Part shown: piece after piece, positions 298 to 52,677 of the stretch
Layout: every line of letters begins with the position of its first letter
Position numbering within the stretch: the first letter of the stretch is position 1
Assembly (NCBI RefSeq): GCF_021917145.1
Contig: NC_061081.1
Location: 9,820,100 to 9,884,099, forward strand
Direction of reading: 5' to 3'
DNA length: 64,000 nt
DNA from: Hypomesus transpacificus
Taxonomy: Eukaryota > Chordata > Actinopteri > Osmeriformes > Osmeridae
Notes under the pieces: model-generated
What the model was told of the DNA's origin: nothing
What the model saw: the letters and a program-made list of their open reading frames with translations, nothing else
The model's database searches: none
Position numbers and translations under genes: made by a program

Positions 298-560
298 CAA
301 AATCCAAGAATTATGCATCTCAGGAAAGTGAAAGGGTACCGCTTCCTGTATCCCCAATTCAGCTGGAAAATATGATAAAAATTATTGAAAAAATCAATGT
401 CAAATGACTTTCCTATTGAATTGAAATGACGGATTTTAGATGAGAATTACCTCAGCTGTGACATTGGCAGCCAGTTCTTGATATTGCGGTGACTTTGGGT
501 TGTTATATTCAATTACGAAAACCCGCACCAAGCGCATCCTCAGAAAGAGGTAACCCTCAT
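298..560 (-). other. SEA domain, N-terminal and middle parts (copy A)
   Basis: The N-terminal strand is encoded at about 560-451, then an 88-bp intron (450-363) with acceptor TTTTCCAG, then the 65-bp exon 362-298. Landmarks are the basic and hydrophobic RMRLVRVFVIEY, the QYQEL pair typical of the SEA helix, the NVT sequon, and YRKRYPFTFLRCIILGF. Copies B and 3 have Arg where this copy has Trp in the third codon of the middle exon. The strand bearing the G-S bond is in the next exon, outside the window. Confidence 0.8.
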
Positions 561-3500
561 TTTGTTGAGGGGGTTCTGTTGATGCACCTGTGCTAGTGGT
601 GGTAAATCTGGTAGTGCTAGAAGTTTGTGTCGCAGGGATAGCTATTTTGGTTGTGGATGTAGTTGAATGTGGTAGAGAAGTTGGGGCTGTTGCGATACTT
701 GTAAAAGATGCTGTGGTAGTTGTAGGGGCAACTGTGGTACTTGTAGGGGCAGCTGTGGTTGTAGTAGGAGCAGCTGTGGTTGTAGTAGGAGCAGCTGTGG
801 TTGTTGTAGGGGCAACTGTGGTTATAATCGGAGCAGCTCTTGTAGTTGTAGGTGCAGCTGTGGTTGTAGTAGGGGCGACTGTTGTCGTTGTTGGGGCGGC
901 TGTGGTTGTACTGGGAGTAGCTGTGGCTGTTGTTGGAGCCTCTGTGGTAGTTGTTGGGGTGGCTGTGGTAGTAGTGGGAGAAACTGTGGATGTTGTTGGA
1001 GTGTCTGTGGTATTTTTAGGGGCAGCTGTGGTTGTAGTGGGAGAAGTTGCAGATGTTGTTGGAGTGTCTGTGGTAGTTGTAGGGGCAGCTGTGGTCTTAG
1101 TGGGAGAAGCTGTGGTTGTTGTTGGAAACTCTGTTGCTATTAAAGGTGCAGTTGATGTTGTAGTAGGAGCGGCTGTTGTTGTTGGAGCCTCTGAGGTAGT
1201 TGTTGGGGAATTTGTAGGTGCAAATGTGGTTGCAGTGGGAGAAGCTGTGGTTGTGGTTGGACCAGATGTGGTCGTTGTGGGAGAAGCTCTTGTTGCTGTT
1301 GGATTCTCTGTAGTAGTTGTAGGGGTAGCTGTGGTTGTAGTTGGAGCAGCTGTGGTCGTAGTGGGAGAAGCTGTGCTTGTAGTTGGAGCAGCTGTGGTCG
1401 TAGTGGGAGGAGCCGTTGTTGTTGGAGCCTCTGTTGTAATAGTAGGTGCAGCTGTGGTTATATTTGGAGCCTCTGTTGTAGTTGTAGGTGAAGCTGTGGT
1501 TGTTGTTTGATCCTCTCTGGTAGTTGTAGGGGCAGCTGTGGTTGTTGTGGGAGAAGCTTTTGTAGCTGTAGGTGCCACTGTGGTTGTTTTTGGAGCCTCT
1601 GTGATAGTTGTAGGTGCAGCTGTTGTTGTAGTGGGAGCAGCTGTGGTTGTTATTGGATCCTCTGGTGTAATTGTCGGTGCACCTTTGGTTGTAGTGAGAG
1701 AAGCGTTGGTAGTAGTGGGAGAAACTGTGGTTGTTGTTGGAGCTTCTGTTGTAGTTGTAGTTGCAGCTGTGGTTGTTGTTTGATCCTCTGTGGTAGTTGT
1801 AGGGGCTGCTGTGGTTGTTGTGGGAGCAGCTGTTGTAGTTGTAGGTGCAGCTGTGGTTGTAGTGGGGGCACCTGTTGTAGTTGTAGGTGCAGTTGTGGTT
1901 CTTGTCGGAGCCTCTGCTGCAGTTGTAGGTGTAGCTGTGGTCGCAGTGGGAGCAGCCGTTGTTTTACGAGCCTCTGTTGTAGTTGTAGGTGAAGCTGTGG
2001 TCGAAGTGGGAGCAGCCGTTGTTGCTGTTGTTGGAATCTCTGTTGTAATTGTAGGTGCAGCTTTGGTTGTAGTGGGAGCACCTGTTGTAGTTGTAGGTGC
2101 AGCTTTGGTTGTAGCGGTAGAACCTGTTGTAGTTGTAGGTGCAGCTGTTGTTGTAGGTAGAGCGTCTGTGGTAGTTGTTTGGGCGGCTGTTGTTGTAATG
2201 GGAGCAGTTGTGGTAGTTGTAGGTGCAGCTGTGGTCATAGTAGGAGCAGCTGTTGTTGTTGAAGCCTCTAGTGTAGTTGTTGGGTTAGCTGTGGTTGTAT
2301 TGGGAGCAGCTCTGGTTGTTGTTGGAGCCTGTGTTGTAGTTGTAGCTGCAGCTGTGGTTGTTGTTTGATCCTCTGTGGTAGTTGTAGGGGCAGCTGTGAT
2401 TGATGTGGGAGCAGCTGTGGTAGTCGTGGGAGAAGCTGTGGTTTTAGTGGGGGCACCTGTTGTAGTTGTAGGTGCAGCTGTGATTGTAGTAGGGGCGACT
2501 GTTGTCGTTGTTGGGGCGGCTGTGGTTGTACTGAGAGTAGCTGTGGCTGTTGTTGGAGCCTCTGTGGTAGTTGTTGGGGTGGCTGTGGTAGTAGTGGGAG
2601 AAACTGTGGATGTTGTTGGAGTGTCTGTGGTATTTTTAGGGGCAGCTGTGGTTGTAGTGGGAGAAGTTGCAGATGTTGTTGGAGTGTCTGTGGTAGTTGT
2701 AGGGGCAGCTGTGGTCTTAGTGGGAGAAGCTGTGGTTGTTGTTGGAAACTCTGTTGCTATTAAAGGTGCAGTTGATGTTGTAGTAGGAGCGGCTGTTGTT
2801 GTTGGAGCCTCTGAGGTAGTTGTTGGGGAATTTGTAGGTGCAAATGTGGTTGCAGTGGGAGAAGCTGTGGTTGTGGTTGGACCAGATGTGGTCGTTGTGG
2901 GAGAAGCTCTTGTTGCTGTTGGATTCTCTGTAGTAGTTGTAGGGGTAGCTGTGGTTGTAGTTGGAGCAGCTGTGGTCGTAGTGGGAGAAGCTGTGCTTGT
3001 AGTTGGAGCAGCTGTGGTCGTAGTGGGAGGAGCCGTTGTTGTTGGAGCCTCTGTTGTAACAGTAGGTGCAGCTGTGGTTATATTTGGAGCCTCTGTTGTA
3101 GTTGTAGGTGAAGCTGTGGTTGTTGTTTGATCCTCTCTGGTAGTTGTAGGGGCAGCTGTGGTTGTTGTGGGAGAAGCTTTTGTAGCTGTAGGTGCCACTG
3201 TGGTTGTTTTTGGAGCCTCTGTGATAGTTGTAGGTGCAGCTGTTGTTGTAGTGGGAGCAGCTGTGGTTGTTATTGGATCCTCTGGTGTAATTGTCGGTGC
3301 ACCTTTGGTTGTAGTGAGAGAAGCGTTGGTAGTAGTGGGAGAAACTGTGGTTGTTGTTGGAGCTTCTGTTGTAGTTGTAGTTGCAGCTGTGGTTGTTGTT
3401 TGATCCTCTGTGGTAGTTGTAGGGGCTGCTGTGGTTGTTGTGGGAGCAGCTGTTGTAGTTGTAGGTGCAGCTGTGGTTGTAGTGGGGGCACCTGTTGTAG

Positions 3501-6500
3501 TTGTAGGTGCAGTTGTGGTTCTTGTCGGAGCCTCTGCTGCAGTTGTAGGTGTAGCTGTGGTCGCAGTGGGAGCAGCCGTTGTTTTACGAGCCTCTGTTGT
3601 AGTTGTAGGTGCAGCTGTGGTCGAAGTGGGAGCAGCCGTTGTTGCTGTTGTTGGAATCTCTGTTGTAATTGTAGGTGCAGCTTTGGTTGTAGTGGGAGCA
3701 CCTGTTGTAGTTGTAGGTGCAGCTTTGGTTGTAGCGGTAGAACCTGTTGTAGTTGTAGGTGCAGCTGTTGTTGTAGGTAGAGCGTCTGTGGTAGTTGTTT
3801 GGGCGGCTGTTGTTGTAATGGGAGCAGTTGTGGTAGTTGTAGGTGCAGCTGTGGTCATAGTAGGAGCAGCTGTTGTTGTTGAAGCCTCTGTTGTAGTTGT
3901 TGGGTTAGCTGTGGTTGTATTGGGAGCAGCTCTGGTTATTGTTGGAGCCTGTGTTGTAGTTGTAGCTGCAGCTGTGGTTGTTGTTTGATCCTCTGTGGTA
4001 GTTGTAGGGGCAGCTGTGATTGATGTGGGAGCAGCTGTAGTAGTCGTGGGAGAAGCTGTGGTTTTAGTGGGGGCACCTGTTGTAGTTGTAGGTGCAGCTG
4101 TGATTGTTGTTGGAGCCTCTGTGGTAGTTGTAGGTGTAGCTGTGGTCGCAGTGGGAGCAGCCGTTGTTATTGGAGCCTCTGTTGTAGTTGTAGGTGCAGC
4201 TGTGGTCATAATGGGAGCATACGTTGTTGTTGTTGGAGCCTCTGTTGTAGTTGTAGGTGCAGCTGTTGTTGTAGTGGGAGCAGCTGTGGTTGTTGTTGGA
4301 TTCTCTGTTGTAGTTGTAGGTACAGCTGTTGTTGTAGTGTGAGCAGCTGTGGTTGTTGTTGGATCCTCTGGTGTAATTGTGGGTGCACCTTTGGTTGTAG
4401 TGAGAGAAGCGTTGGTAGTGGTGGGAGAAACTGTGGTTGTTGTTGGAGCCTCTGTTGTAGTTGTAGCTGCAGCTCTGGTTGTTGTTGAGTTAGCTGTGGT
4501 TGTTGTTGGAGCCTCTATTGTAGTTGTAGTTGCAGCTGTGGTTGTTGTTTGATCCTCTGTGGTAGTTGTAGGGGCAGCTGTGGTTGTTGTGGGAGCAACT
4601 GTTGTGGTTGTAGGTGCAGCTGTGGTTGTAGTGGGGTTACCTGTTGTAGTTGTAGGTGCAGTTGTGGTTCTTGTCGGAGCCTCTGCTGCAGTTGTAGGTG
4701 TAGCTGTGGTCTTAGTGGGAGCAGCCGTTGTTGTTGTTGGAGCCTCTGTTGTAGTTGTAAGTGCAGCTGTGGTTGTAGTCGGAGCAGACGTTGTTTTACG
4801 AGCCTCTGTTGTAGTTGTAGGTGCAGCTGTGGTCGAAGTGGGAGCAGCCGTTGTTGTTGTTGTTGGAATCTCTGTTGTAATTGTAGGTGCAGCTTTGGTT
4901 GTAGTGGGAGCACCTGTTGTAGTTGTAGGTGCAGCTTTGGTTGTAGTGGGAGAACCTGTTGTAGTTGTAGGTGCAGCTGTTGTTGTAGGTAGAGCGTCTG
5001 TGGTAGTTGTTTGGGCGGCTGTGGTTGTAATGGGAGCAGCTGTGGTAGTTGTAGGTGCAGCTGTGGTCATAGTAGGAGCAGCTGTTGTTGTTGAAGCCTC
5101 TGTTGTAGTTGTTGGGTTAGCTGTGGTTGTATTGGGAGCAGCTGTGGTTGTTGTTGGAGCCTGTGTTGTAGTTGTAGCTGCAGCTGTGGTTGTTGTTTGA
5201 TCCTCTGTGGTAGTTGTAGGGGCAGCTGTGGTTGATGTGGGAGCAGCTGTGGTAGTCGTGGGAGAAGCTGTGGTTTTAGTGGGGGCACCTGTTGTAGTTG
5301 TAGGTGCAGCTGTGATTGTTGTTGGAGCCTCTCTGGTAGTTGTAGGTGTAGCTGTGGTTGTAGTGGGAGAAGTTGCAGATGTTGTTGGAGTGTCTGTGGT
5401 AGTTGTAGGGGCAGCTGTGGTCTTAGTGGGAGAAGCTGTGGTTGTTGTTGGAAACTCTGTTGCTATTAAAGGTGCAGTTGATGTTGTAGTAGGAGCGGCT
5501 GTTGTTGTTGGAGCCTCTGAGGTAGTTGTTGGGGAATTTGTAGGTGCAAATGTGGTTGCAGTGGGAGAAGCTGTGGTTGTGGTTGGACCAGATGTGGTCG
5601 TTGTGGGAGAAGCTCTTGTTGCTGTTGGATTCTCTGTAGTAGTTGTAGGGGTAGCTGTGGTTGTAGTTGGAGCAGCTGTGGTCGTAGTGGGAGAAGCTGT
5701 GCTTGTAGTTGGAGCAGCTGTGGTCGTAGTGGGAGGAGCCGTTGTTGTTGGAGCCTCTGTTGTAATAGTAGGTGCAGCTGTGGTTATATTTGGAGCCTCT
5801 GTTGTAGTTGTAGGTGAAGCTGTGGTTGTTGTTTGATCCTCTCTGGTAGTTGTAGGGGCAGCTGTGGTTGTTGTGGGAGAAGCTTTTGTAGCTGTAGGTG
5901 CCACTGTGGTTGTTTTTGGAGCCTCTGTGATAGTTGTAGGTGCAGCTGTTGTTGTAGTGGGAGCAGCTGTGGTTGTTATTGGATCCTCTGGTGTAATTGT
6001 CGGTGCACCTTTAGTTGTAGTGAGAGAAGCGTTGGTAGTAGTGGGAGAAACTGTGGTTGTTGTTGGAGCTTCTGTTGTAGTTGTAGTTGCAGCTGTGGTT
6101 GTTGTTTGATCCTCTGTGGTAGTTGTAGGGGCTGCTGTGGTTGTTGTGGGAGCAGCTGTTGTAGTTGTAGGTGCAGCTGTGGTTGTAGTGGGGGCACCTG
6201 TTGTAGTTGTAGGTGCAGTTGTGGTTCTTGTCGGAGCCTCTGCTGCAGTTGTAGGTGTAGCTGTGGTCGCAGTGGGAGCAGCCGTTGTTTTACGAGCCTC
6301 TGTTGTAGTTGTAGGTGAAGCTGTGGTCGAAGTGGGAGCAGCCGTTGTTGCTGTTGTTGGAATCTCTGTTGTAATTGTAGGTGCAGCTTTGGTTGTAGTG
6401 GGAGCACCTGTTGTAGTTGTAGGTGCAGCTTTGGTTGTAGCGGTAGAACCTGTTGTAGTTGTAGGTGCAGCTGTTGTTGTAGGTAGAGCGTCTGTGGTAG

Positions 6501-9500
6501 TTGTTTGGGCGGCTGTTGTTGTAATGGGAGCAGTTGTGGTAGTTGTAGGTGCAGCTGTGGTCATAGTAGGAGCAGCTGTTGTTGTTGAAGCCTCTGTTGT
6601 AGTTGTTGGGTTAGCTGTGGTTGTATTGGGAGCAGCTCTGGTTGTTGTTGGAGCCTGTGTTGTAGTTGTAGCTGCAGCTGTGGTTGTTGTTTGATCCTCT
6701 GTGGTAGTTGTAGGGGCAGCTGTGATTGATGTGGGAGCAGCTGTGGTAGTCGTGGGAGAAGCTGTGGTTTTAGTGGGGGCACCTGTTGTAGTTGTAGGTG
6801 CAGCTGTGATTGTAGTAGGGGCGACTGTTGTCGTTGTTGGGGCGGCTGTGGTTGTACTGGGAGTAGCTGTGGCTGTTGTTGGAGCCTCTGTGGTAGTTGT
6901 TGGGGTGGCTGTGGTAGTAGTGGGAGAAACTGTGGATGTTGTTGGAGTGTCTGTGGTATTTTTAGGGGCAGCTGTGGTTGTAGTGGGAGAAGTTGCAGAT
7001 GTTGTTGGAGTGTCTGTGGTAGTTGTAGGGGCAGCTGTGGTCTTAGTGGGAGAAGCTGTGGTTGTTGTTGGAAACTCTGTTGCTATTAAAGGTGCAGTTG
7101 ATGTTGTAGTAGGAGCGGCTGTTGTTGTTGGAGCCTCTGAGGTAGTTGTTGGGGAATTTGTAGGTGCAAATGTGGTTGCAGTGGGAGAAGCTGTGGTTGT
7201 GGTTGGACCAGATGTGGTCGTTGTGGGAGAAGCTCTTGTTGCTGTTGGATTCTCTGTAGTAGTTGTAGGGGTAGCTGTGGTTGTAGTTGGAGCAGCTGTG
7301 GTCGTAGTGGGAGAAGCTGTGCTTGTAGTTGGAGCAGCTGTGGTCGTAGTGGGAGGAGCCGTTGTTGTTGGAGCCTCTGTTGTAATAGTAGGTGCAGCTG
7401 TGGTTATATTTGGAGCCTCTGTTGTAGTTGTAGGTGAAGCTGTGGTTGTTGTTTGATCCTCTCTGGTAGTTGTAGGGGCAGCTGTGGTTGTTGTGGGAGA
7501 AGCTTTTGTAGCTGTAGGTGCCACTGTGGTTGTTTTTGGAGCCTCTGTGATAGTTGTAGGTGCAGCTGTTGTTGTAGTGGGAGCAGCTGTGGTTGTTATT
7601 GGATCCTCTGGTGTAATTGTCGGTGCACCTTTGGTTGTAGTGAGAGAAGCGTTGGTAGTAGTGGGAGAAACTGTGGTTGTTGTTGGAGCTTCTGTTGTAG
7701 TTGTAGTTGCAGCTGTGGTTGTTGTTTGATCCTCTGTGGTAGTTGTAGGGGCTGCTGTGGTTGTTGTGGGAGCAGCTGTTGTAGTTGTAGGTGCAGCTGT
7801 GGTTGTAGTGGGGGCACCTGTTGTAGTTGTAGGTGCAGTTGTGGTTCTTGTCGGAGCCTCTGCTGCAGTTGTAGGTGTAGCTGTGGTCGCAGTGGGAGCA
7901 GCCGTTGTTTTACGAGCCTCTGTTGTAGTTGTAGGTGTAGCTGTGGTCGAAGTGGGAGCAGCCGTTGTTGCTGTTGTTGGAATCTCTGTTGTAATTGTAG
8001 GTGCAGCTTTGGTTGTAGTGGGAGCACCTGTTGTAGTTGTAGGTGCAGCTTTGGTTGTAGCGGTAGAACCTGTTGTAGTTGTAGGTGCAGCTGTTGTTGT
8101 AGGTAGAGCGTCTGTGGTAGTTGTTTGGGCGGCTGTTGTTGTAATGGGAGCAGTTGTGGTAGTTGTAGGTGCAGCTGTGGTCATAGTAGGAGCAGCTGTT
8201 GTTGTTGAAGCCTCTGTTGTAGTTGTTGGGTTAGCTGTGGTTGTATTGGGAGCAGCTCTGGTTATTGTTGGAGCCTGTGTTGTAGTTGTAGCTGCAGCTG
8301 TGGTTGTTGTTTGATCCTCTGTGGTAGTTGTAGGGGCAGCTGTGATTGATGTGGGAGCAGCTGTAGTAGTCGTGGGAGAAGCTGTGGTTTTAGTGGGGGC
8401 ACCTGTTGTAGTTGTAGGTGCAGCTGTGATTGTTGTTGGAGCCTCTGTGGTAGTTGTAGGTGTAGCTGTGGTCGCAGTGGGAGCAGCCGTTGTTATTGGA
8501 GCCTCTGTTGTAGTTGTAGGTGCAGCTGTGGTCATAATGGGAGCATACGTTGTTGTTGTTGGAGCCTCTGTTGTAGTTGTAGGTGCAGCTGTTGTTGTAG
8601 TGGGAGCAGCTGTGGTTGTTGTTGGATTCTCTGTTGTAGTTGTAGGTACAGCTGTTGTTGTAGTGTGAGCAGCTGTGGTTGTTGTTGGATCCTCTGGTGT
8701 AATTGTGGGTGCACCTTTGGTTGTAGTGAGAGAAGCGTTGGTAGTGGTGGGAGAAACTGTGGTTGTTGTTGGAGCCTCTGTTGTAGTTGTAGCTGCAGCT
8801 CTGGTTGTTGTTGAGTTAGCTGTGGTTGTTGTTGGAGCCTCTATTGTAGTTGTAGTTGCAGCTGTGGTTGTTGTTTGATCCTCTGTGGTAGTTGTAGGGG
8901 CAGCTGTGGTTGTTGTGGGAGCAACTGTTGTGGTTGTAGGTGCAGCTGTGGTTGTAGTGGGGTTACCTGTTGTAGTTGTAGGTGCAGTTGTGGTTCTTGT
9001 CGGAGCCTCTGCTGCAGTTGTAGGTGTAGCTGTGGTCTTAGTGGGAGCAGCCGTTGTTGTTGTTGGAGCCTCTGTTGTAGTTGTAAGTGCAGCTGTGGTT
9101 GTAGTCGGAGCAGACGTTGTTTTACGAGCCTCTGTTGTAGTTGTAGGTGCAGCTGTGGTCGAAGTGGGAGCAGCCGTTGTTGTTGGAATCTCTGTTGTAA
9201 TTGTAGGTGCAGCTTTGGTTGTAGTGGGAGCACCTGTTGTAGTTGTAGGTGCAGCTTTGGTTGTAGTGGGAGAACCTGTTGTAGTTGTAGGTGCAGCTGT
9301 TGTTGTAGGTAGAGCGTCTGTGGTAGTTGTTTGGGCGGCTGTGGTTGTAATGGGAGCAGCTGTGGTAGTTGTAGGTGCAGCTGTGGTCATAGTAGGAGCA
9401 GCTGTTGTTGTTGAAGCCTCTGTTGTAGTTGTTGGGTTAGCTGTGGTTGTATTGGGAGCAGCTGTGGTTGTTGTTGGAGCCTGTGTTGTAGTTGTAGCTG

Positions 9501-23898: not shown

Positions 23899-24783
23899 CT
23901 TGAAAGGAAATAGAAGAGACATTGTTTTACACTGAATTCATTTGACTATAAAATTAATCAACAAATCCTTCCCGTGCGTATTTTCTGCTGTTTCGCTATA
24001 GCCACAACAAACTGCTGCTCTGACTTACGTCTTTATAGTTTAATTGCGTTCCCAATTGGGACTTATGTGAAAACATAAATATTTATTTTTATACAAATTA
24101 CAGTTGAGTTGACAAAATGTTGCAAACCTCTTCAATGACACTACTACTTTTAAAATAGTGACTTTTATTTTTTGTTTCATTTTTAAATGTGTATAACCGT
24201 TGCCATCAAGATACAACATGTTATGGGTAACCTTATAGTAGCTAATTGGGTTGCTACGTATTGACATTTTAATTAAAAACCCACTGGACCAGCCACCACC
24301 ATTCAGCCTCTTTATACCTTCTTCTACAATCTCACACTTTTTACATCTCTTCACCTTCTTTGTTTGATGGCTTAGGTCTCCCAGATTGCCACCCACAAGC
24401 CATCTCGAGAAGGTACATGAACGTTACATTTTGTCTGAATGAATGCTGTTTTCTAGTTTAATAAAATAAATATTAAAGAAAATAATATGTGATAAATATT
24501 AATTAAGAAAGTTTATGTTGAGAAATTGAATATGCTAAATCATTATTAACGTTTTTTGACAAACATTTCAAACTTTTCAAAAAAGTTCATGCATCAAAAG
24601 CAAGTATAAATACATTATAAATATGAATAATGATAAAGATTATTTAAGAATATTAGCATTAGAGCAATTCTAATGTTTACCTTTGTGTATATAGAATTGT
24701 TCAATAACATATGTTCTTCATTTTTTTTCATGACAATCCATTTTTTATGTCCTACTTGTTTAATGTTTTGTAGCATTGCATTT

Positions 24784-24789
24784 TTTATT
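24784..24789 (-). terminator. Candidate poly(A) signal for copy B
   Basis: AATAAA on the minus strand lies about 370 bases after the stop of copy B (170 without the SINE). The paralogous spot after copy 3 reads AATCAA, so the signal is not shared. Other AATAAA matches shared by both spacers occur at 24,164-24,169 and 49,358-49,363. None can be preferred without transcripts. Confidence 0.3.
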
Positions 24790-24903
24790 TGGTTACACAC
24801 ATTTCTTTAGTTACAGGAATGTCTTTCAAAAGTACGTTATTTTCTTGTCCTAATTCATGAAAATTTTTTCATGTTTTTGCAATTCTGCAATTTGATATGA
24901 AGA

Positions 24904-25095
24904 GTCAGATGGCTGAGCGGTGAGGGAGTCGGGCTAGAAATCAGAAGGTTGCCGGATCGATTCCCCGCCGTGTCAAATGACGCTGTGTCCTTGGGCAAGG
25001 CACTTCACCCTACTTGCCTCGGGGGGAATGTCCCTGTACTTACTGTAAGTCGCTCTGGATAAGAGCGTCTGCTAAATGACTAAATGTAAATGTAA
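24904..25095 (+). mobile_element. tRNA-derived SINE 3' of copy B
   Basis: The head carries TGGCTGAGCGGT; the body carries CCTTGGGCAAGGCACTTCACC; the tail ends in GATAAGAGCGTCTGCTAAATG, followed by TAAATG repeats. An exact 9-bp target-site duplication, ATATGAAGA, lies at 24,895-24,903 and 25,096-25,104. The paralogous spacer after copy 3 (near 50,090) lacks the element, so it inserted after copies B and 3 separated. Confidence 0.85.
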
Positions 25096-25157
25096 ATATG
25101 AAGAAAAGGGCCTGAAAAGTCTAAAAAGATCTACATCAAAATGAACAGAAAGTTGAT

Positions 25158-25360
25158 TCAAGTGATTGGTAGTAGAAAAGTGACCATATCTACAGGTCTG
25201 CTCCTTGCCATTGCACTGCTGGTGGTGAGTTCTGTGGCAGTTTGAGCTGTTTGTGTTGTTGTACTGGTACTTGCAGCTCTACTTGTGGTTGTAGATGCTA
25301 CTGTGGAATTACTTGCCTCCACAGTTGTAGGAGTTACAGTACTGGAGGCAGTTGGTTCAG
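25158..25360 (-). other. Terminal exon of copy B with truncated anchor tail
   Basis: The exon starts in phase 1 (GCT-GAA-CCA across the splice). It encodes ~50 Ser/Thr-rich residues, then SSAMARSRPVDM and VTFLLPIT before TGA at 25,160-25,158. Copy 3 has TTA at this codon and nine further hydrophobic residues. The downstream bases in B still resemble that tail (ATC AAC TTT CTG TTC ATT TTG ATG TAG), so the loss comes from one substitution and looks recent. Confidence 0.8.
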
Positions 25361-28300
25361 CTATTGTGGGAAAGAAGAAAAACATTGTGTCTTGCAAAAC
25401 ATTAAACTGTGTTCGAACACATTTTTTACATTTTTAGTTTTTTTAACATATATGAACATGATGGAATTATTTAGATTATAATCATTACAAACCTGCAACA
25501 ATACTGCCAGTGATAACATTCAGGAAAACCAGGGATTCATTTAAAGCCGTTTTTAATGAGTCTTCTGCACTGGTGATGTTTGGAACTGCACTCTCATTCT
25601 GGAATATTAAATTGGCTGTGACACCCACTGACCCAGGCCTGAAAAGTAGAGATTCATAAATGGATTGTTAATCCTCAAGCAATAGAGCATGAATACATTG
25701 AAAGAGCCAACTAAAACATTTAAATTACATGTAGTTATTTAGCAAACACTCTTATCCAGAGCAACTTACAGTAAGTACAGGGACATTCTCCCTGAGGCAA
25801 GTAGGGTGAAGTGCCTTGCCCAATGACACAACATCATTTGGCACGGTCGGGAATCAAACTGGTAACCCCCCTCATAAATAGCCCAACTCCCTAACCGCTC
25901 AGCCATCTGACCCCCCTATAAACCTAAATCTATTGTCACGGATCACTTACCAAAATCCAAGAATTATGCATCTCAGGAAAGTGAAAGGGTACCGCTTCCT
26001 GTATCCCCGATTCAGCTGGAAAATATGATAAAAAATTATTGAAAAAATCAATGTCAAATGACTTTCCTATTGAATTGAAATGACGGATTTTAGATGAGAA
26101 TTACCTCAGCTGTGACATTGGCAGCCAGTTCTTGATATTGCGACGACTTTGGGTTGTTATATTCAATTACGAAAACCCGCACCAAACGCATCCTCAGAAA
26201 GAGGTAACCCTCATTTTGTTGAGGGGGTTCTGTTGATGCACCTGTGCTACTGGTGGTAAATCTGGTAGTGCTAGAAGTTTGTGTCGCAGGGATAGCTATT
26301 TTGGTTGTGGATGTAGTTGAATGTGATAGAGAGGTTGGGGCTGTTGCGATACTTGTAAAATATGCTGTGGTAGTTGTAGGGGCAGCTGTGGTACTTGTAG
26401 GGTCAGCTATGGTTGTAGGAGGAGCAGCTGTGGTTGTAGTAGGAGCAGCTGTGGTTGTTGTAGGGGCAACTGTGGTTGTAATCGGAGCAGCTTTTGTAGT
26501 TGTTGGTGCAGCTGTGGTTGTTGTTGGTGCCTCTGTGATATTTGTTGGGGCAGCTGTGGTTGTAGTAGGAGCGGCTGTTGTCATTGTTGGAGACTCTGTT
26601 GTACTTGTAGGTGCATCTGTGGTTGTAGTAGGGGCGACTGTTGTCGTTGTTGGGGCGGCTGTGGTTGTAGTGGGAGCAGCTGTGGTAGTAGTTGGAGAAA
26701 CTGTGGTTGTTGGTTTCAAAGCTGTGGTAGTTGTTGGGGTGGCTGTGGTTGTACTGGGAGCAGCTGTGGTTGTTGTTGAAGCCTCTGTTGTGGTTGTAGC
26801 TGCAGCTGCGGTTGTAGTGGGAGCAGCTGTGGTCGTAGTGGGAGCAGCCGCTGTTGTTGTTGGAGCCTCTGTTGTAGTTGTAGGTGCAGCTGTGGTTGTA
26901 GTGGGAGAAGCTGTGGTTGTAGTTGGGGCCTCTGTTGGTATTATAGGTGCAGCTGATGTTGTAATAGGAGCGGCTGTTGTTGTTGGAGCCCTTGTTGCTA
27001 TTATGGGTGCAGCTGATGTTGTAGGAGGAGTGGCTGTTGTTGTTGGAGCCTTTGTGGTAGTTGTTGGGGAAGCTGTAGTTGTAAGTTCAGATGTGGTTGT
27101 AGTAGGAGAAGCTGTGGTTGAAGTAGGAGCACCTGTTGTAGTTGTAGGTGCAGCTGTGGTAGTTGTTAGAGCCTCTGTGGTAATTGTTAAGGCAGCTGTT
27201 GTTGTAGTGGGAGCAGCTGTGGTTGTTGTATGAGCCTCTGTTGTAGTTGCGGGTGCAACTGTTGTTGTGGTAGGAGAAGCTGTGGTTGTTGTTGAAGCCT
27301 CTGTTGTAGTTGTAGCTGCAGCTGTGGTAGTAGTGGGAAAAGCTGTTGTTGTTGGAGCCTCTGTTGTAGTTGTAAGGGCAGCTGTGGTCTTAGTGGGAGC
27401 AGCCGTTGTTGTTGTTGGATTCTCTGTTGTAGTTGTAGATGCAGCTGTGGTTGTAGTGGGAGAAGCTGTGGTTGTAGTTGGGGTCTCTGTTGGTATTATA
27501 GATTCAGCTAATGTTGTAATAGGAGCGGCTGTTGTTGTTGGAGCCTCTTTGGTAGTTGTTGGGGAATTTGGAGGTGCAGCTGTTGTTGTAGTGGGAGAAG
27601 CTGTGGTTGTATTTGGAGCAGCTCTGGTCGTAGTGTGAGAAGCTCTGGTTGCTGTTGGATTCTCTGTGGTAGTTTTACGGGGAGCGGTGGTTGTAGTTGG
27701 AGCAGCTGTGGTTGTAGTTGGGGCCTCTGTAGCTATTAAAGGTGCAGTTGATGTTGTAGTGGGAGCGGCTGTTGTTTTTGGAGCCCTTGTTGCTATTATA
27801 GGTGCAGCTGATATTGTAGTAGGAGCGGCTGTTGTTGTTGGAGCCTCTGTGGTAGTTGTTTGGGAAGCTGTAGTTGTACGTTCAGCTGTGGTTGTAGTGG
27901 GATAAGCTGTGGTTGTTGTAGACGGAACAGCTGTGGGTGTTGTTGGAACCTCTGTGGTAGTTGTAGGGGCAGCTGTGGTCGTAGTGGGAGAAGCACTGGT
28001 TGCTGTTGAATTCTCTGTGGTAGTTTTACGGGTTGCTCTGGTGGTAGTTGGAGCAGCTATGGTCGTAGTGGGAGAAGTTGTGGTTGTAGTTGGAGCAGCA
28101 GTGGTCGTAGTGGGATTAGCCGTTGTTGTTGTTCGAGCCTCATTTGTAGTTGTAGGTGTAGCTCTGGTTGTAGTGGGAGCACCTGTTTTAGTTGTAGATG
28201 CAGCTGTGGTTGTTGTTGGATTCTCTGTTGTAGTTGTAGGTGCAGCTGATGTTGTAGTAGGAGCGGCTGTTGTTTTTGGAGCCCGTGTTGCTATTATAGG

Positions 28301-43300: not shown

Positions 43301-46300
43301 TGTAGTGGGAGCAGCTGTTGTTGTTGGAGCATCTGTTGTAGTTGTAGGTACAGAGGTGGTTGTAGTGGGAGCAGCTGTGGTTATTGTTGGAGCCTCTGTT
43401 GTAGTTTTAGCTGCAGCTGTGGTTGTTGGGTTAGCTGTGGTTGTAGTGGGAGCAGCTGTGGTTGTTGTTGGAGCCTCTGTTGTAGCTCTATGGGTAGCTG
43501 TGGTTGTTGTGGGAGCAGCTGTGGTCGTAGTGGAAGAAACTGTGCTTGTAGTTGGAGCAGCTGTGGTTGTAGTGGGAGCAGCCGTTGTTGTTTGAGCCTT
43601 TGTTGTAGTTGTAGGTGCAGCTCTGGTTGTTGTTGGAGCCTCTGATGTAGCTGTAAGTGCACTCTTGGTTGTTGTTTGATCCTCTTTGGTAGTTTTAGGG
43701 ACAGCTGTGGTTGTTGTGGGAGCAGCTGTTGTAGTTGTAGGTGCCACTGTGGTTGTTGGAGCCTCTGTGATAGTTGTAGGCGAAGCTGTTGTTGTAGTGG
43801 GAGCAGCTGTTGTTGTTGGAGCATCTGTTGTAGTTGTAGGTACAGAGGTGGTTGTAGTGGGAGAATCGTTGGATGTTGTTGGAGCTTCTGTTGTAGTTGT
43901 TGGGTTAGGTGTGGTGGTAGTAGGAGCGGCTGTTGTCGCTGTTGGAGACTCTGTGGTAGTTGTAGGGTCAGCTGTGGTTGTTGTTGAAGCCTCTGTTGTA
44001 GTTGTAGCTGCAGCTGTGGTAATAATGGGAGCAGCTATGCTGGTAGTGGGAGAAGCTGTTGATGTTGGAGCCTCTGTTGTAGTTGTAAGTGCAGCTGTGG
44101 TCTTAGTAGGAGCAGCCGTTGTTGTTGTCGGATTCTCTGTTGTAGTTGTAGGTGCAGCTGTGGTTGTAGTGGGAGAAGCTGTGGTTGTAGTTGAGGCCTC
44201 TGTTGGTATTATAGATCCAGTTAATGTTGTAATAGGAGCGGCTGTTGTCGTTGGAGCCTCTGTGGTAGTTGTTGGGGAATTTGTAGGTGCAGCTGTGGTT
44301 GTAGCGGGAGAAGCTGTGGTTGTACTTGGAGCAGCTGTGGTCGTAGTGGGAGAAGCACTGATTGCTGTTGGATTCTCTTTAGTAGTGTTACGGGGAGCTG
44401 TGGTTGTAGTTGGAGCAGCTATGGTCGTAGTGGGAGAAGTTGTGGTTGTAGTTGGAGCAGCTGTGGTTGTAGTGGGAGCAGCCGTTGTTGTTGGATTCTC
44501 TGTTGTAGTTGTAGGTGCAGCTGGGGTTGTTGTTGAAGCCTCTGTTGTAGTTGTAGCTGCAGCTGTGGTAGTAATGGGAGCAGCTATGGTAGTAGTGGGA
44601 GAAGCTGTTGTTGTTGAAGCCTCTGTTGTAGTTGAAAGTGCAGCTGTGGTCTTAGTGGGAACAGCCGTTGTAGTTGTCGGATTCTCTGTTGTAGTTGTAG
44701 GTGCAGCTGTGGTTGTAGTGGGAGAAGATGTTGTTGTTGTTGGAGCGTCTGTTGTAGTTGTAGGTGCCACTGTGGTTGTTGTAGGTGCAGCTGGGGTTGT
44801 TGTTGGAGCCTCAGATGTAGTTGTATGTGCACTTTTGGTTGTTATGTTGTCCTCTGTGGTAGTTGTAGGGGCAGCTGTGGTTGTTGTGGGAGCAGCTGTT
44901 GTAGTTGTAGGTGCCACTGTGGTTGTTGGAGCCTCTGTGATAGTTGTAGGTGCAGAAGTATTTGTAGTGGGAGCAGCTGTTGTTGTTGGAGCCTCTGTTG
45001 TAGTTTTAGCTGCAGCTGTGGTTGTTGGGTTAGCTGTGGTTGTAGTGGGAGCAGCTGTGGTTGTTGTTGGAGCCTCTGTTGTAGCTCTATGGGTAGCTGT
45101 GGTTGTTGTGGGAGCAGCTGTGGTCGTAGTGGAAGAAACTGTGCTTGTAGTTGGAGCAGCTGTGGTTGTAGTGGGAGCAGCCGTTGTTGTTTGAGCCTTT
45201 GTTGTAGTTGTAGGTGCAGCTGTGGTTGTTGTTGGAGCCTCTGATGTAGCTGTAAGTGCACTCTTGGTTGTTGTTTGATCCTCTTTGGTAGTTTTAGGGA
45301 CAGCTGTGGTTGTTGTGGGAGCAGCTGTTGTAGTTGTAGGTGCCACTGTGGTTGTTGGAGCCTCTGTGATAGTTGTAGGCGAAGCTGTTGTTGTAGTGGG
45401 AGCAGCTGTTGTTGTTGGAGCATCTGTTGTAGTTGTAGGTGCAGCTGTGGTTGTAGTGGGAGAAGCTGTGGTTGTAGTTGAGGCCTCTGTTGGTATTATA
45501 GATCCAGTTAATGTTGTAATAGGAGCGGCTGTTGTCGTTGGAGCCTCTGTGGTAGTTGTTGGGGAATTTGTAGGTGCAGCTGTGGTTGTAGTGGGAGAAG
45601 CTGTGGTTGTACTTGGAGCAGCTGTGGTCGTAGTGGGAGAAGCACTGATTGCTGTTGGATTCTCTTTAGTAGTGTTACGGGGAGCTATGGTTGTAGTTGG
45701 AGCAGCTATGGTCGTAGTGGGAGAAGTTGTGGTTGTAGTTGGAGCAGCTGTGGTTGTAGTGGGAGCAGCCGTTGTTGTTGGATTCTCTGTTGTAGTTGTA
45801 GGTGCAGCTGGGGTTGTTGTTGAAGCCTCTGTTGTAGTTGTAGCTGCAGCTGTGGTAGTAATGGGAGCAGCTATGGTAGTAGTGGGAGAAGCTGTTGTTG
45901 TTGAAGCCTCTGTTGTAGTTGAAAGTGCAGCTGTGGTCTTAGTGGGAACAGCCGTTGTAGTTGTCGGATTCTCTGTTGTAGTTGTAGGTGCAGCTGTGGT
46001 TGTAGTGGGAGAAGATGTTGTTGTTGTTGGAGCGTCTGTTGTAGTTGTAGGTGCCACTGTGGTTGTTGTAGGTGCAGCTGGGGTTGTTGTTGGAGCCTCA
46101 GATGTAGTTGTATGTGCACTTTTGGTTGTTATGTTGTCCTCTGTGGTAGTTGTAGGGGCAGCTGTGGTTGTTGTGGGAGCAGCTGTTGTAGTTGTAGGTG
46201 CCACTGTGGTTGTTGGAGCCTCTGTGATAGTTGTAGGTGCAGAAGTATTTGTAGTGGGAGCAGCTGTTGTTGTTGGAGCATCTGTTGTAGTTGTAGGTAC

Positions 46301-47128
46301 AGAGGTGGTTGTAGTGGGAGCAGCTGTGGTTATTGTTGGAGCCTCTGTTGTAGTTTTAGCTGCAGCTGTGGTTGTTGGGTTAGCTGTGGTTGTAGTGGGA
46401 GCAGCTGTGGTTGTTGTTGGAGCCTCTGTTGTAGCTCTATGGGTAGCTGTGGTTGTTGTGGGAGCAGCTGTGGTCGTAGTGGAAGAAACTGTGCTTGTAG
46501 TTGGAGCAGCTGTGGTTGTAGTGGGAGCAGCCGTTGTTGTTTGAGCCTTTGTTGTAGTTGTAGGTGCAGCTGTGGTTGTTGTTGGAGCCTCTGATGTAGC
46601 TGTAAGTGCACTCTTGGTTGTTGTTTGATCCTCTTTGGTAGTTTTAGGGACAGCTGTGGTTGTTGTGGGAGCAGCTGTTGTAGTTGTAGGTGCCACTGTG
46701 GTTGTTGGAGCCTCTGTGATAGTTGTAGGCGAAGCTGTTGTTGTAGTGGGAGCAGCTGTTGTTGTTGGAGCATCTGTTGTAGTTGTAGGTACAGAGGTGG
46801 TTGTAGTGGGAGCAGCTCTGGTTGTTGTTGGAGCCTCTGTTGTAGTTGTAGCTGCAGCGGTGGTTGTTGTTGGGTTAGCTGTGGTTGTAGTGGGAGCAGC
46901 TGTGTTTGTTGTTGGAGCCTTTGTTGTAGTTGTAGGTGCAGTAGTGGTTGTTGTTTGATCCTCTGTGGTAGTTGTAGGGTTAGCTGTGGTTGTTGTTGGA
47001 GCAACTTTTGTAGTTGTAGGTGAAGCTGTGGTTGTTGTTGGAGCCTCTGCTGTAGTTGTAGGTGCAGAAGTAGTTGTGGAAGCCGCTGTGGTTGTTTGAG
47101 CCTGTGTGGTTGTTGTCATAACAGAAAT
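25158..47128 (-). CDS. Giant mucin-like SEA protein, copy B
   Basis: Four exons join in frame: 47,128-26,105 (21,024 bp, 7,008 codons), 26,015-25,951 (65 bp), 25,638-25,493 (146 bp) and 25,360-25,158 (203 bp with TGA). They total 21,438 bp, or 7,145 residues. Intron phases are 0, 2 and 1; acceptors read TTTCAAG, TTTTCCAG, TTTTCAG and CACAATAG. The first exon is a Thr/Pro/Ala heptad array ending in the first SEA strand. Exons 2 and 3 complete a ~107-residue SEA domain with a WPGSVGV turn like the self-cleaving turn of MUC1-type SEA domains. Exon 4 is a Ser/Thr stalk that ends early (VTFLLPIT, stop). Compared with copy 3, a TTA codon is TGA here, so the predicted GPI-type tail is shortened. The protein may be secreted, mis-anchored or degraded. 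The leader exon was not identified. Confidence 0.85.
25493..26214 (-). other. SEA domain of copy B (three coding pieces)
   Basis: The pieces are ~26,214-26,105, 26,015-25,951 and 25,638-25,493. The order of landmarks is RMRLVRVFVIEY, QYQEL, NVT sequon, YRKRYPFTFLRCIILGF, WPGSVGV, NESAVPNITSAEDSLKTAL, then FLNVITGSIVAG. In MUC1-type SEA domains self-cleavage occurs between Gly and Ser of a GSVVV-like turn. Here the G-S pair is kept and the third following residue is Gly. Whether it cleaves is not known from sequence. Confidence 0.8.
25717..25920 (-). mobile_element. tRNA-derived SINE in SEA intron of copy B
   Basis: This is the same insertion as the one at 59-267. The flanks are degraded direct repeats, AACTAAAA (25,709-25,716) and AACCTAAA (25,921-25,928). 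The corresponding intron of copy 3 has a single AACCTAAA at 50,692-50,699 and no SINE. Confidence 0.8.
29420..29860 (-). repeat. 87-bp tandem repeat in copy B exon
   Basis: The plus-strand word GTAGACGGAACAGCTG recurs at 29,454, 29,541, 29,628, 29,715 and 29,802, an exact 87-bp (29-codon) spacing. On the coding strand this gives TAVPSTTTTA blocks separated by EVPTTTT and AAPTTTT. The same word occurs once each near 27,921 and 28,419. The array is local and does not belong to the 5.9-kb block. The longer period shows that new unit lengths are still being formed from the 21-bp base unit. Confidence 0.8.
31810..46960 (-). repeat. Higher-order repeat array inside copy B exon
   Basis: The plus-strand landmark CTCTTTGGTAGTTTTAGGGA recurs at 33,468, 35,130, 35,622, 36,114, 37,776, 39,375, 41,037, 41,529, 42,021, 43,683, 45,282 and 46,632. 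The spacings are 1,662-492-492-1,662-1,599, repeated exactly a second time, then 1,350. The large block is thus 5,907 bp (1,969 codons) in two copies. The 1,599-bp form lacks three 21-bp units relative to the 1,662-bp form. A more diverged 1,662-bp unit precedes at about 31,810. The two blocks share private variants at matching positions. Confidence 0.85.
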
Positions 47129-50107
47129 CTTGAAAGGAAATAGAAGAGACATTGTTTTACACTGAATTCCTTTGACTATAAAATGTATCAACAAATACTT
47201 CCCATGCGTAGTTTATCTGTATTTGTAAATCTTTGCTGTTTCGCTATAGCCACAACAAACTGTTCCTCTGACTTATGGGTCAAGGAAAAATAAGGTTTCT
47301 AAAAAAGCTTTTTTAAAGTGTTTTCAAAATGGATTTCATGCATATCTTTACATCTGGATCAGTGTGTCTAAGCAACTTTTGTTATTTAAATAACATTTCA
47401 AAGTGGTTAAATTCATTTTGTTCCTGTTTTTTTTACTTCACTACCCAAAATATGTCAGGTGGCGCAACCAAATATTTGTTAATATATATTTATTTTCCGA
47501 CTATTTATTTTAATTGAATTATTTTCACAAGTATCCATTAGAATGTCGATAGTCCCCCTAACACATTATAATTTTGTTTTGGTGTTTTGTATTTATAACA
47601 ATTTAAGATCATTGCATTCTAGTGGCCGGGTATTTAGTATCTTTAGCATCAGATTTTTACATTTAAAGACCAAAACATATTCTACAAATCTACAAATGAA
47701 TGCATTCAGTACAATAGCTATTCACATCATATATATCAACCATTTGTTCACTTTGACCTATTATTTATTGGTTGAATTTAATATTTTACATGGTCGCACC
47801 ACCTGACGATTATCAGTTGTGCCACCTGACAACATTAGTTATGACAGAAAATATGCTGAATAATATATTTTTTCTTTTTTCAAATACACTATAAGTGTTT
47901 AAGTCAACAGTTTCTATTAAAGTAAAAGTAGTAAATTGATCAAAAACAGGATACATCACTATACAATAGATGCAATAGATTACATCGATACATTGTATTG
48001 GATTGAACAACAAATTCATGTTTTACTTTGATTAACTGGAAAAACGAAACAAAACGTTACGGACGTGACATGGCCATGAAACTCACTGACTCATAAAGGC
48101 TTAATGCATTTAAGGAGTTGCTTTTAACTCAAGCTGAGCATACACAATGCTCTATCATTCCCTTGTCAATCAGGAAAAATGTAACATTTTATTGAAAACT
48201 GGAGTCCATTTACCCCATTCTTGAAACGGTATAAACGTACAAAAGTGCAAAAGTGCACAACTTGTATATTATGTAAAAGAGTACAATTGTCTATACATTT
48301 CGATCAGACTGGTTCCATGCAACAAAATATAGACCTAAGTGAACATTTTAACAACAGTTATATTTGTGGTTTTTCTATGGTAAGGGTGACCTTTGCATGG
48401 AATTGCCCATATGGCATGTGTACCAATATACAGTAAACAAAGCAGCACCTTTTGCCACCTGACGCTGGTTGTGCAACCTGACTTTTGCAACTAATTTCAA
48501 ATTAAACAGGCTTCTACCTGGACGCCTGTTTTATCTTTCACTATTGCTAGCAAATTAATACACATCACTTTTAAATAGAAAAAAGATTTTTATGGAAAAC
48601 TTTTTTTTCCTTGTTATACATTGGTTGTACCACCTGATATGAAAAGTGTACCAGCCTACCTATGAGGTGAAAGTAACTATTTTTATCAATATTTGAGAGA
48701 GCTCTACAAACCTTTTCACTCAATAACTCGGGTCATTAGAGGTCCTCTAGATGATGCAATATCCTGTTTACTGTTTAACCTGTTTACTTCAAAATAAAGG
48801 TCCCATGTTTTCGGTTGTGCCACTCTGACATTTGAGAACATACAAATGACCGGACAAAAGTTCTTCAGTTATCTCAATGGCTTAAAAACTATTGGTATTT
48901 TAAAAATATGGTTCATTAAAAGGTTTCAAACATAAAATCATGCCAAAGTATTTTATTTTGAATTTATTATCATTGAAATATATTTTTTTTATAGTTTTCT
49001 TAGTCCCCTTATTTGCATGGACAGTTGCGCCACCTGACATTCTGGAGGTTTGAGATGCCAAAGCATAAAATCATATGTATTATTTGAATGTACTGAAATG
49101 TATTACAACTAATTAGGTTTTAAAGAGTAAATTGATACATTCATGAATTGATTACATAAAAATAATAATAATAATGCACTCGGACACCAAAATATGCATG
49201 TCATGTCATTGACCCTTATGTCTTTATACTTTCATTGCGTTCCTAATTGGGATTTATGTGAAAACATAATAAATATTATTGTTTTTACAAATTACAGTTG
49301 AGTTGACAAAATGTCGCAAACCTCCTCAATGACACGACTACTTTTAAAATAGTGACTTTTATTTTTTGTTTCATTTTAAAATGTGTACAACCGTTGCCAT
49401 CAAGATACAACATGTTAAGGGTAACCTTATAGTAGCTAATTGGGTAGCTACGTATTGACATTTTAATTAAAAACCCACTGGACCAGCCACCCCCATTCAG
49501 CCTCTTTATACCTTCTTCTACAATCTCACACTTTTTACATCTCTTCACCTTCTTTGTTTGATGACTTTAGGTCTCCCAGATTGCCAGCCACAAGCCATCT
49601 CGTGAAAGTACATTAAAGTTACATTTTGTCTGGCTGAATGCTGTTTTCCAGTTAAATAAAATAAATTTTAAAGAAAATAATACATGATAATGATTAATTA
49701 AGCAGGTTTATGTTGAGAAATTGAATATGCTAAATCATTATTTACGTTTGTTAACAAACATTTCAGACATTTCAAAAAGGTTCATGCATCAAAAGCAAGT
49801 ATAAATACATTATAAATATAAATAATGATAAAGATTATTTAAGAATATTAGCATTACAGCAATTCTAGTGTTTACATTTGTGTATATAGAATTGTTTAAT
49901 CAAATATTGTTTTCATTTTTTTTCATGACAATTTTTTTTTATGTCCTACTTGTTTCATATTTTGTAGCATTGCATTTTTGATTTGGTTACACACATTTCT
50001 TTAGTTACAGGAATGCCTTTCAAAAGTATGTTATTTTCTTTTGCTGATTCATTTGAATGTTTACATGTTTTTGCAGTTCTGCAATTTCCATAAAAGTCTG
50101 AAAAGAT
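47129..50107 (-). other. Spacer between copy 3 and copy B
   Basis: Two parts are duplicated in the B-A spacer: 47,129-47,280 and 49,212-50,107. The 1.93 kb between them (47,281-49,211) is absent there. The whole stretch is AT-rich. It should contain the 3' end of copy 3 and the start of copy B, but no convincing leader exon, TATA box or other gene was found. Short plus-strand open frames (for example 47,543-47,806 and 48,221-48,436) show no family features and are not called. Confidence 0.6.
47453..49039. repeat. Eight dispersed copies of an 18-bp motif
   Basis: The consensus is TGGTTGTGCCACCTGACA. Copies read forward at 47,791, 47,815, 48,449, 48,467, 48,622, 48,812 and 49,022 (starts approximate), and reversed at 47,453-47,470. 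Each matches at most positions around a CACCTGA core; spacing is irregular (about 20 to 630 bp). All fall inside the 1.93-kb segment missing from the paralogous spacer. They could be subterminal repeats of a decayed transposon or a set of binding sites. Confidence 0.7.
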
Positions 50108-51302
50108 CTACATCAAAATGTACAGAAAGTAGATTAAAGTGATTGGTAGTAGAAAAGTGACCATATCTACAGGTCTGCTCCTTGCCATTGCACTGCTGGT
50201 GGTGAGTGCTGTGGCAGTTTGAGTTGTTTGTGTTGTTGTACTGGTACTTGCAGCTGTACTTGTGGTTGTAGATGCTACTGTGTAATCAGTTACCTCCACA
50301 GTTGTAGGAGTTACAGTACTGGAAGTATTTGGTTCAGCTATTGTGGGAAAGAAGAAAAACATTGTTTCTTGCAAACTATTTAACTGAGTTCAATCCAATT
50401 TTTCAAATGTCTAGTTTTTTTTACATATATGAACATAATGGAATTATTTAGATTATAATCATTACAAACCTGCAACAATACTGCCAGTGATAACATTCAG
50501 GAAAACCAGGGAATCATTTAAAACCGTTTTTAATGAGTCTTCTGCACTGGTGATGTTTGGAACTACATTCGCATTCTGAAATATTAAGTTGGCTGTGACA
50601 CCCACTGACCCAGGCCTGAAAAGTAGAGATTCATAAATTGATTGTTTATACTCAAGCAATAGAGCATGAATACATTGAAAGAGCCTACATAAACCTAAAT
50701 CTCTTGTCACGGATCACTTACCAAAATCCAATAATTATGCATCTCAGGAAAGTGAAAGGGTAACGCTTCCTGTATCCCCGATTCAGCTAGAAGATTTGAC
50801 GAAAACAATTGATTGATTATTGCACAGAGAACATATGAAAACATCAAGTATTGAAAAATCAATGTCAAATAATTTTCTTATTGAATTGAAGCGATGGGTT
50901 TTAGATGAGAATTACCTCAGTTGTGACATTGCCAGCCAGTTCTTGATATTGCGACGACTTTGGGTTGTTGTATTCAACAATGAAAACCCGCACCAAACGC
51001 ATCCTCAGAAATAGGTAACCCTCATTTGGCTGAGGGGGGTCTGTCGATGCGACTGTGCTAGTGGTGGTTAATCTGGTAGTGCTAGAAGTTTGTGTCGCAA
51101 GGATAGCTGTTGTGGTTGTGGATGTAGTTGATTGTGGTAGAGAAGTTGGGGCTTTTGTGATACTTGTATTTAGTGTGACATTTGGGGTTGAGATTGCCAT
51201 TGTGGTGTGTGCAGTAGCCATGGTTGATGCCATTGTTAAAGATGTGTCAGTTGTAGATGAAAATGTTGTAGATGCCTGACTGACAGTTGGTGAACTAGTT
51301 AT
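50108..51302 (-). CDS. Compact SEA/GPI mucin-like protein, copy 3
   Basis: Four exons join in frame: 51,302-50,916 (387 bp), 50,786-50,722 (65 bp), 50,615-50,470 (146 bp) and 50,337-50,108 (230 bp with TAG). They total 828 bp, or 275 residues, plus an unseen leader exon. Phases are 0, 2 and 1, as in copy B. The first exon holds ~90 Ser/Thr-rich residues without the regular heptad, then the first SEA strand. Exons 2-3 complete the SEA domain with WPGSVGV and NITS. Exon 4 is a Ser/Thr stalk followed by SSAMARSRPVDM and a hydrophobic tail (VTFLLPITLIYFLYILM) that runs to the stop, as in a GPI-attachment signal: small residues, a spacer, then a greasy end with no cytoplasmic tail. It is probably the unexpanded form of the gene that gave rise to A and B. 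Confidence 0.82.
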
Positions 51303-52480: not shown

Positions 52481-52677
52481 TTATATTAGGAATTGTAAAC
52501 AAATTATTTGGACTTTAATTATTGGGAGGGAAAACTGAAAGTTCGTGAAAAATAGTAAAGTGACCGCAAGTTTGGGTCTTTCTCTTGCCATAATGCTGTC
52601 AGAAGTGGTTTGAATGGCGGATGATGTCAAACTTGTGATGCTTGTCGAAGAAGCAATTGTGGTAGAAGATGGCAGTT
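52481..52677 (-). other. Terminal anchor exon of gene C
   Basis: Phase 1 entry (G|AA-CTG), a Ser/Thr stalk of ~35 residues, then MARERPKL and about 30 mostly hydrophobic residues to the stop. It is homologous to 25,158-25,360 and 50,108-50,337 by position, phase, stalk type and MAR-x-RP. The tail is longer than in copy 3 and has one internal Lys, so a type I membrane helix with no cytoplasmic part is an alternative to GPI. Confidence 0.7.

Follow-up and report, generated by a model that had tools for sequence, protein, structure and literature searches.

The locus described here raises the question of how a family of mucins is held at the cell surface. The window, a stretch of 64,000 nucleotides of Hypomesus transpacificus DNA (C22:9820100-9884099), lies in a tandem array of genes in which exons rich in proline, threonine and serine (PTS) lead into SEA domains. 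We consider it fairly probable that these genes form a tandem family of SEA membrane mucins in which a glycosylphosphatidylinositol (GPI) attachment signal, encoded by the C-terminal exon, replaces the transmembrane segment and cytoplasmic tail. The strongest evidence is the presence of two subfamilies, group 1 in and around the window and group 2 beside it, whose SEA domains agree at about two fifths of residues and which both have a predicted GPI-type exon at the same place in the gene. Confidence in GPI anchoring is moderate for the family and lower for the individual copies in the window.

The genome (437,198,280 bases in 376 contigs) was searched with one SEA domain as the query; the match counts are lower bounds. 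At least 30 SEA exon matches were obtained: 24 represented three exons each of eight close copies, A to H, at C22 9.8199-9.9434 Mb, five belonged to a diverged group at 9.969-9.986 Mb and one was on contig C186. Exons were rebuilt from positions 9790001-10014000 and from part of C186. Group 1 has at least eight close SEA copies, all on the minus strand, and three of these fall within the window. The first-pass annotation had described three SEA copies with a four-exon plan and intron phases 0, 2 and 1; this largely held, the copies lying on the minus strand with GT-AG junctions, and the five copies outside the window agreed in all three junctions, giving three GT-AG introns in these phases in 8/8 group-1 copies. 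The plan opens with a PTS exon that closes with the first strand of the SEA domain; two SEA exons follow, and a stalk/anchor exon completes it. In copies G and H, both outside the window, the fourth exon is not an anchor exon and continues into the next PTS region.

All three window copies had been credited with the full plan, which was correct for B and C. Only the first two exons of copy A lie in the window, with exons 3 and 4 just to the left of base 1 and open in the genome. On the minus strand, copy A has a giant PTS exon at 451-23922 (candidate ATG to the end of the first SEA strand, in one frame, 49% Thr, donor GTAATT, within an open frame at 436-23937) and SEA exon 2 at 298-362, entered in phase 0 and left in phase 2. 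Copy B has an open giant PTS exon at 26105-47152, again from a candidate ATG to the end of the first SEA strand, followed by SEA exon 2 (25951-26015), SEA exon 3 with the GSVGV motif (25493-25638, phase 2 in and phase 1 out) and the stalk/anchor exon (25158-25360). In copy C, a short PTS exon with a phase-0 acceptor, ending in the first SEA strand (50916-51302), precedes SEA exon 2 (50722-50786), SEA exon 3 with GSVGV (50470-50615) and the stalk/anchor exon (50108-50337).

These genes are SEA mucins by domain, PTS region and cleavage motif. The PF01390 SEA profile scored above its cut-off of 26.4 bits in 5/5 spliced domains submitted from the two subfamilies, with 32-33 bits for three group-1 domains (E = 8.5e-8, 1.4e-7 and 6.6e-8) and 51-54 bits for two group-2 domains (E = 1.8e-14 and 1.6e-13). 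One of the three group-1 domains was a composite that joined exons 1-2 of copy A to exon 3 of copy B, and it scored 32.7 bits. The self-cleavage motif GSVGV was present in 8/8 group-1 copies, and the three group-2 rows aligned had GSVVV or GSIVV; across eight aligned rows from both subfamilies the G and S of the cleavage site were invariant, and the next V was replaced by I in one. The ratio of nonsynonymous to synonymous substitution rates (dN/dS) in the SEA domain was below 1 in 10/10 pairs among A, B, C, D and G (range 0.32-0.89). A single-sequence search of PDB sequences with the SEA domain returned nothing meaningful. The best match in a profile search was the ADGRF1 SEA domain (E = 0.0064), with TMPRSS11D at E = 0.035, which indicates that there is no close solved mucin relative.

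The C-terminal ends bear directly on the mode of anchoring. The terminal sequence S-(G/S)-A-MARS-(K/R)-PVD-MVTFLLP..FLYILM, followed by a stop, is found in copies A, C, D, E and F; these represent three distinct tail sequences, since D, E and F are identical. In all five, a hydrophobic run of 18 residues follows the last charged residue and continues to the stop codon. In copy C, whose end is TSSAMARSRPVDMVTFLLPITLIYFLYILM before the stop, the 18 residues past the last charge have a mean hydropathy of 2.25 (window 50337-50108). The ends were compared with a GPI rule that consisted of a small-residue triplet, a spacer and an uncharged hydrophobic run to the end, and it was passed by A, C and D/E/F and by 3/3 group-2 terminal exons found. 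The earlier proposal that the end of copy C resembles a GPI signal, with no tail in the exon, was upheld by its 18 uncharged residues and by this rule. A transmembrane segment followed by a cytoplasmic tail was not seen in the exons reconstructed: group-1 copies A, C, D, E and F and the three group-2 exons end at the hydrophobic run, and copy B ends earlier.

Group-2 genes are found on both strands between 9.9625 and 10.0065 Mb, beside the group-1 array. When the first group-2 row was compared with five rows of group 1, the SEA domains were 41-42% identical. The phases 0, 2 and 1 recurred in 6/6 group-2 modules checked. Each of the three terminal exons is preceded by a phase-1 intron, and the last intron is in phase 1 in both subfamilies. 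Two of these exons end in ..SGGPPRHTTFS(I/M)AAMTLILLQVVQMLAGL and stop, that is ..TSGGPPRHTTFS(I/M)AAMTLILLQVVQMLAGL, and one in ..SASPPRHKNVSMAAIMLSLLLVVQMLATL and stop, that is ..FSASPPRHKNVSMAAIMLSLLLVVQMLATL; all have the classical order of small triplet, polar spacer and hydrophobic run to the last residue. The occurrence of GPI-type ends in both subfamilies makes it probable that the family acquired such an end long ago. Gene P has a signal-peptide exon, MHLKILMVVLCFFA, followed by a phase-1 intron of matching phase, and exons of compatible phase connect its SEA domains P1, P2 and P3 and its last PTS stretch. Genes N and Q had hydrophobic start candidates only. One more group-2 SEA module lies at C186:27161-28552, and its first SEA intron is enlarged; the terminal exon of this copy was not found in the part of C186 examined.

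The array also contains genes that have no SEA domain. The giant PTS exon 5' of copy C (64000-52835) has a phase-1 donor to an anchor exon of its own, with no SEA between; the portion at 52835-64000 on the minus strand is the 3' part of a frame of 8334 codons, the 5' part of which extends past base 64000. Its anchor-type exon (52481-52678, minus strand) is hydrophobic and interrupted by Lys. Terminal exons of this kind occur in four identical copies, each containing MARERP and a hydrophobic stretch that the Lys divides, and 10 residues follow the Lys. That last feature would better fit an ordinary transmembrane helix that leaves hardly any residues in the cytoplasm, and the same might be said of the SEA copies, which would then be tail-less transmembrane mucins: 18 residues past the last charge could just span a membrane, and Arg/Lys and Asp stand directly ahead of the run. 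We regard this as unlikely for the family, because no charge follows the run in A, C, D, E, F or the three group-2 exons, and because group 2 keeps the classical GPI order up to the last residue.

A second way to retain a conventional mucin is an unseen downstream exon that supplies the transmembrane segment and tail, the stop-bearing exon being an alternative end of an I-Muc- or MUC13-like gene. The gene structures were read from DNA only. Transmembrane-like open stretches were sought in the 3' flanks of six SEA copies and of one SEA-less gene, and hydrophobic candidates were present downstream of F, E, D, C and A as well as next to the SEA-less gene. However, there was no candidate at copy B and none common to all copies, although a more distant exon may exist; in F, E and D only about 1 kb separates the stop from the giant PTS exon that comes next, and group 2 ends in the same manner as group 1. 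This explanation is very unlikely.

Several results weigh against a GPI-anchored family. A shared lipid-anchor-type end had been proposed for all three window copies, and this applies to A and C; in copy B a TGA at window 25160-25158 halts the frame early within the hydrophobic run, which is reduced to only 9 residues. Copy B and the MARERP exon (in its four identical copies) both failed the GPI rule. The rule itself is crude, as about 1 in 20 arbitrary ends passes: 137/2,535 frame ends of at least 40 residues on both strands of the fetched region did so (5.4%, in a background set that includes the mucin exons themselves), and 53-90/2,000 shuffles of each passing tail also passed. Its calibration is weak, in that only 1/3 true GPI ends passed, although 0/2 transmembrane mucin ends did. 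Three pairs of tails differed by 1-5 replacement changes and by 0 synonymous changes, numbers so small that no purifying selection can be claimed on the tail, and the comparison of C with D gave the highest SEA dN/dS, 0.89, which is near neutral. Finally, the signal-exon scan found no signal exon upstream of A and B, and the in-exon starts are weak (M-Y/S-LLFPF..), reading MSLLFPFKISVMTTTTQA in A and B and MYLLFPFTIPVMTTTTQA in the giant exons of the C-F units. The proposal of a giant GPI-anchored cluster consequently stands as a GPI-type design that is better supported by the flanking group 2 than by the window, where B has lost half its tail signal, the SEA-less gene at 52.5-64 kb carries the Lys and fails the rule, and C is not giant.

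The giant exons were assessed for coding capacity. The open frames of copies A and B span 7833 and 7040 codons, respectively, and PTS exons in the family reach up to 25 kb. In A and B the PTS region has 48-49% Thr and 12% Pro and consists mostly of the seven-residue unit TTTTAAP, with a dominant Pro spacing of seven residues and a 21-bp repeat in the DNA. Seven of the eight giant PTS exons of the array were read in one frame without a stop, in 960/960 windows of 210 bases. Stops are rare in such repeats by composition, and the coding argument therefore rests on the single frame and not on the lack of stops. The eighth exon, in unit D, has a frame shift, stops and a 500-N assembly gap, and the frame shift may be an assembly fault. 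The frame-call test was used instead of repeat-to-repeat alignments, since 4/8 comparisons gave no alignment and gap counts were uninformative, with gaps that were not multiples of three arising even when an intact frame was aligned to itself. The PTS exon of copy C, by comparison, is not giant and has 129 codons (51302-50916).

Gene boundaries were examined with a signal-exon scan at a cut-off of 2.2; a higher initial cut-off misses the exon of gene H. At 2.2, 56 kb of strand free of mucins gave a background of 6 phase-0 and 8 phase-1 candidates. A clear signal exon, MEEKRTRRRMLLLCLA, in phase 1 at 9951227, opens the first gene of the array and is followed by PTS-SEA(H)-PTS-SEA(G)-PTS and then by the MARERP exon, so that the gene reads as a two-SEA mucin whose own end is not of the clean GPI type. 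The joining of H to G, in which the exon after SEA H leads to the PTS exon of G and that after SEA G to the next PTS, together with the multi-SEA structure of gene P, would also suit a reading of the whole array as a single giant gene that contains many SEA modules and uses alternative anchor exons. That arrangement is quite unlikely, as stop-bearing exons and the mismatch between phase-1 donors and phase-0 acceptors block simple joining of the units.

In units C and F the short SEA gene starts with a phase-0 acceptor, and both have a hydrophobic phase-0 candidate, (M)YMICLTVCICT, upstream, which can be read as MYMICLTVCICT or MICLTVCICT. For copy C this weak candidate lies at 52442-52477 on the minus strand, with donor GTATGTGT, and may be due to chance. 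About 0.13 phase-0 candidates would be expected by chance in the 1.2 kb searched, and the presence of one for both short genes is suggestive but is not proof. An alternative in which the giant exon upstream splices into the short SEA gene of copy C was rejected, as no phase-0 donor was evident by eye. Upstream of copy B, a 1.94-kb insert that is not present in copy A was observed at window 47278-49214 on the minus strand, between a TATA-like stretch and the copy B start; by eye, its ends are GGTCAA/TTGACC, with CATAAG on either flank, and it is probably a mobile element.

Given the weak or absent signal exons, some window copies may be incomplete duplicates. On the strongest form of this idea, the window copies are decaying or partial duplicates and only the outer genes (H-G, and P, N/M and Q of group 2) work, which would leave the family-level claim unaffected. 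It would account for the early stop in B, for A and B having no signal-exon candidate, for the SEA-less giant exons and for the short SEA genes C-F, which have a weak start at best. Duplication is also evident from units D, E and F (C22:9897411-9901611, 9909005-9913205 and 9925500-9929700), which are 99.976-100% identical over 4.2 kb; this near-identity reflects either very recent tandem duplication or duplication in the assembly, and it also counts in favour of the partial-duplicate idea. Nevertheless, 7/8 giant exons keep one frame, and the SEA frames and three splice junctions are intact in 8/8 copies, and we consider it rather unlikely that the window copies are in general decaying or partial.

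The surroundings of the array were examined in six of ten flank pieces: five came from a stretch of about 24 kb to the left, and one from between the subfamilies. A domain scan placed aspartoacylase-type and glycosyl hydrolase 35 (GH35) domains above cut-off (2/6 pieces) and claudin-like and short-chain dehydrogenase-like domains below cut-off; 2/6 pieces had no family. ACHE, TRIM56 and SERPINE1 were not found among the six pieces scanned. A tRNA-like short interspersed repeat was seen by eye in several copies in introns and flanks (window 1-250, 24900-25110, 25750-25930 and 51880-52060).

The arrangement that we favour, a SEA domain followed by a GPI-type end, differs from that of familiar SEA mucins. 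MUC1 and MUC13 have a single SEA domain, a transmembrane segment and a tail, with EGF domains in MUC13 as well, and MUC16 is also transmembrane. A frequent explanation of SEA mucins is that they serve as sensors, acting by way of the cytoplasmic tail once the SEA halves separate. The 63-kDa protein of sea urchin sperm, one of those that gave SEA its name, is GPI-anchored and has a SEA domain and is alike in that combination, but it is not known to be a mucin with giant PTS exons. The GPI-anchored mucins of trypanosomes are alike in forming a GPI-anchored mucin-like surface coat, but they are unrelated protist proteins and are not known to have a SEA domain. No vertebrate GPI-anchored SEA mucin was found among the matches listed from open PubMed Central papers, as judged by title and the start of the abstract.

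Gilthead sea bream I-Muc is described as a fish membrane mucin with SEA near the membrane and a transmembrane domain, and sea bream Muc13 as having SEA, a transmembrane domain and a tail, with cytoplasmic tails of 26-52 residues for I-Muc, Muc13 and Muc18 (PMC3680472). A second paper gives I-Muc repeats, EGF and a transmembrane domain, with no SEA named, and large PTS stretches upstream in the genome (PMC11035888); the two papers differ on SEA in I-Muc. The likeness to the Hypomesus genes is that of a fish membrane mucin without a clear mammalian orthologue, with SEA and upstream PTS (PMC3680472, PMC11035888), whereas I-Muc has a transmembrane domain and the Hypomesus genes end at the hydrophobic run. 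MUC3A, MUC3B, MUC12 and MUC17 are SEA membrane mucins that likewise lie in tandem and have one giant PTS exon, which measures 39 kb in MUC3B, but they have a transmembrane domain and a cytoplasmic tail with a PDZ motif, and have ACHE, TRIM56 and SERPINE1 as neighbours (PMC9578598). The same source describes the SEA domain as a mechanosensor of unclear ultimate function (PMC9578598). MUC16 has multiple SEA modules (PMC1552070). Its alternation of several SEA modules with PTS in one gene is similar to that of the H-G gene and gene P, but MUC16 is transmembrane. A 1991 report of CA125 as GPI-anchored is mentioned in PMC3431878. MUC1 and MUC13 resemble the present genes in having PTS ahead of SEA, and MUC1 in its self-cleaving SEA (partly PMC1552070); they differ in their single SEA, transmembrane segment and tail. 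In Fugu only Muc13 and a MUC1-like gene were described (PMC1552070).

The locus probably encodes SEA mucins with a GPI anchor. In the proposed mechanism, a signal peptide would lead the chain into the endoplasmic reticulum, where the SEA domain would fold and cut itself at G|SVGV or G|SVVV. The N-terminal chain, which would be giant, Thr-rich and heavily O-glycosylated, would then be held non-covalently to a small C-terminal piece. GPI transamidase would remove the hydrophobic end and join the C-terminal piece to a lipid of the outer leaflet. The outcome would be a tall glycocalyx brush with no inner tail, which could be shed either through separation of the SEA halves by force or through cleavage of the lipid. 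We infer expression, cleavage, lipid attachment, glycosylation, a barrier role and the signal peptides of genes other than P and the first array gene. The fullest version of this proposal, with chances that we put at close to but short of even, is of a multigene set of vertebrate SEA mucins in two diverged subfamilies, with single or multiple SEA domains, that would be GPI-anchored throughout, self-cleaved, without a signalling tail and releasable by two independent cuts.

If this is true, the SEA cut has been kept without a tail, so that a barrier and shedding role would be separable from signalling and the family would provide a natural test of the purpose of the cut. Inventories that demand a transmembrane segment after SEA could, in that case, miss membrane mucins of fish.

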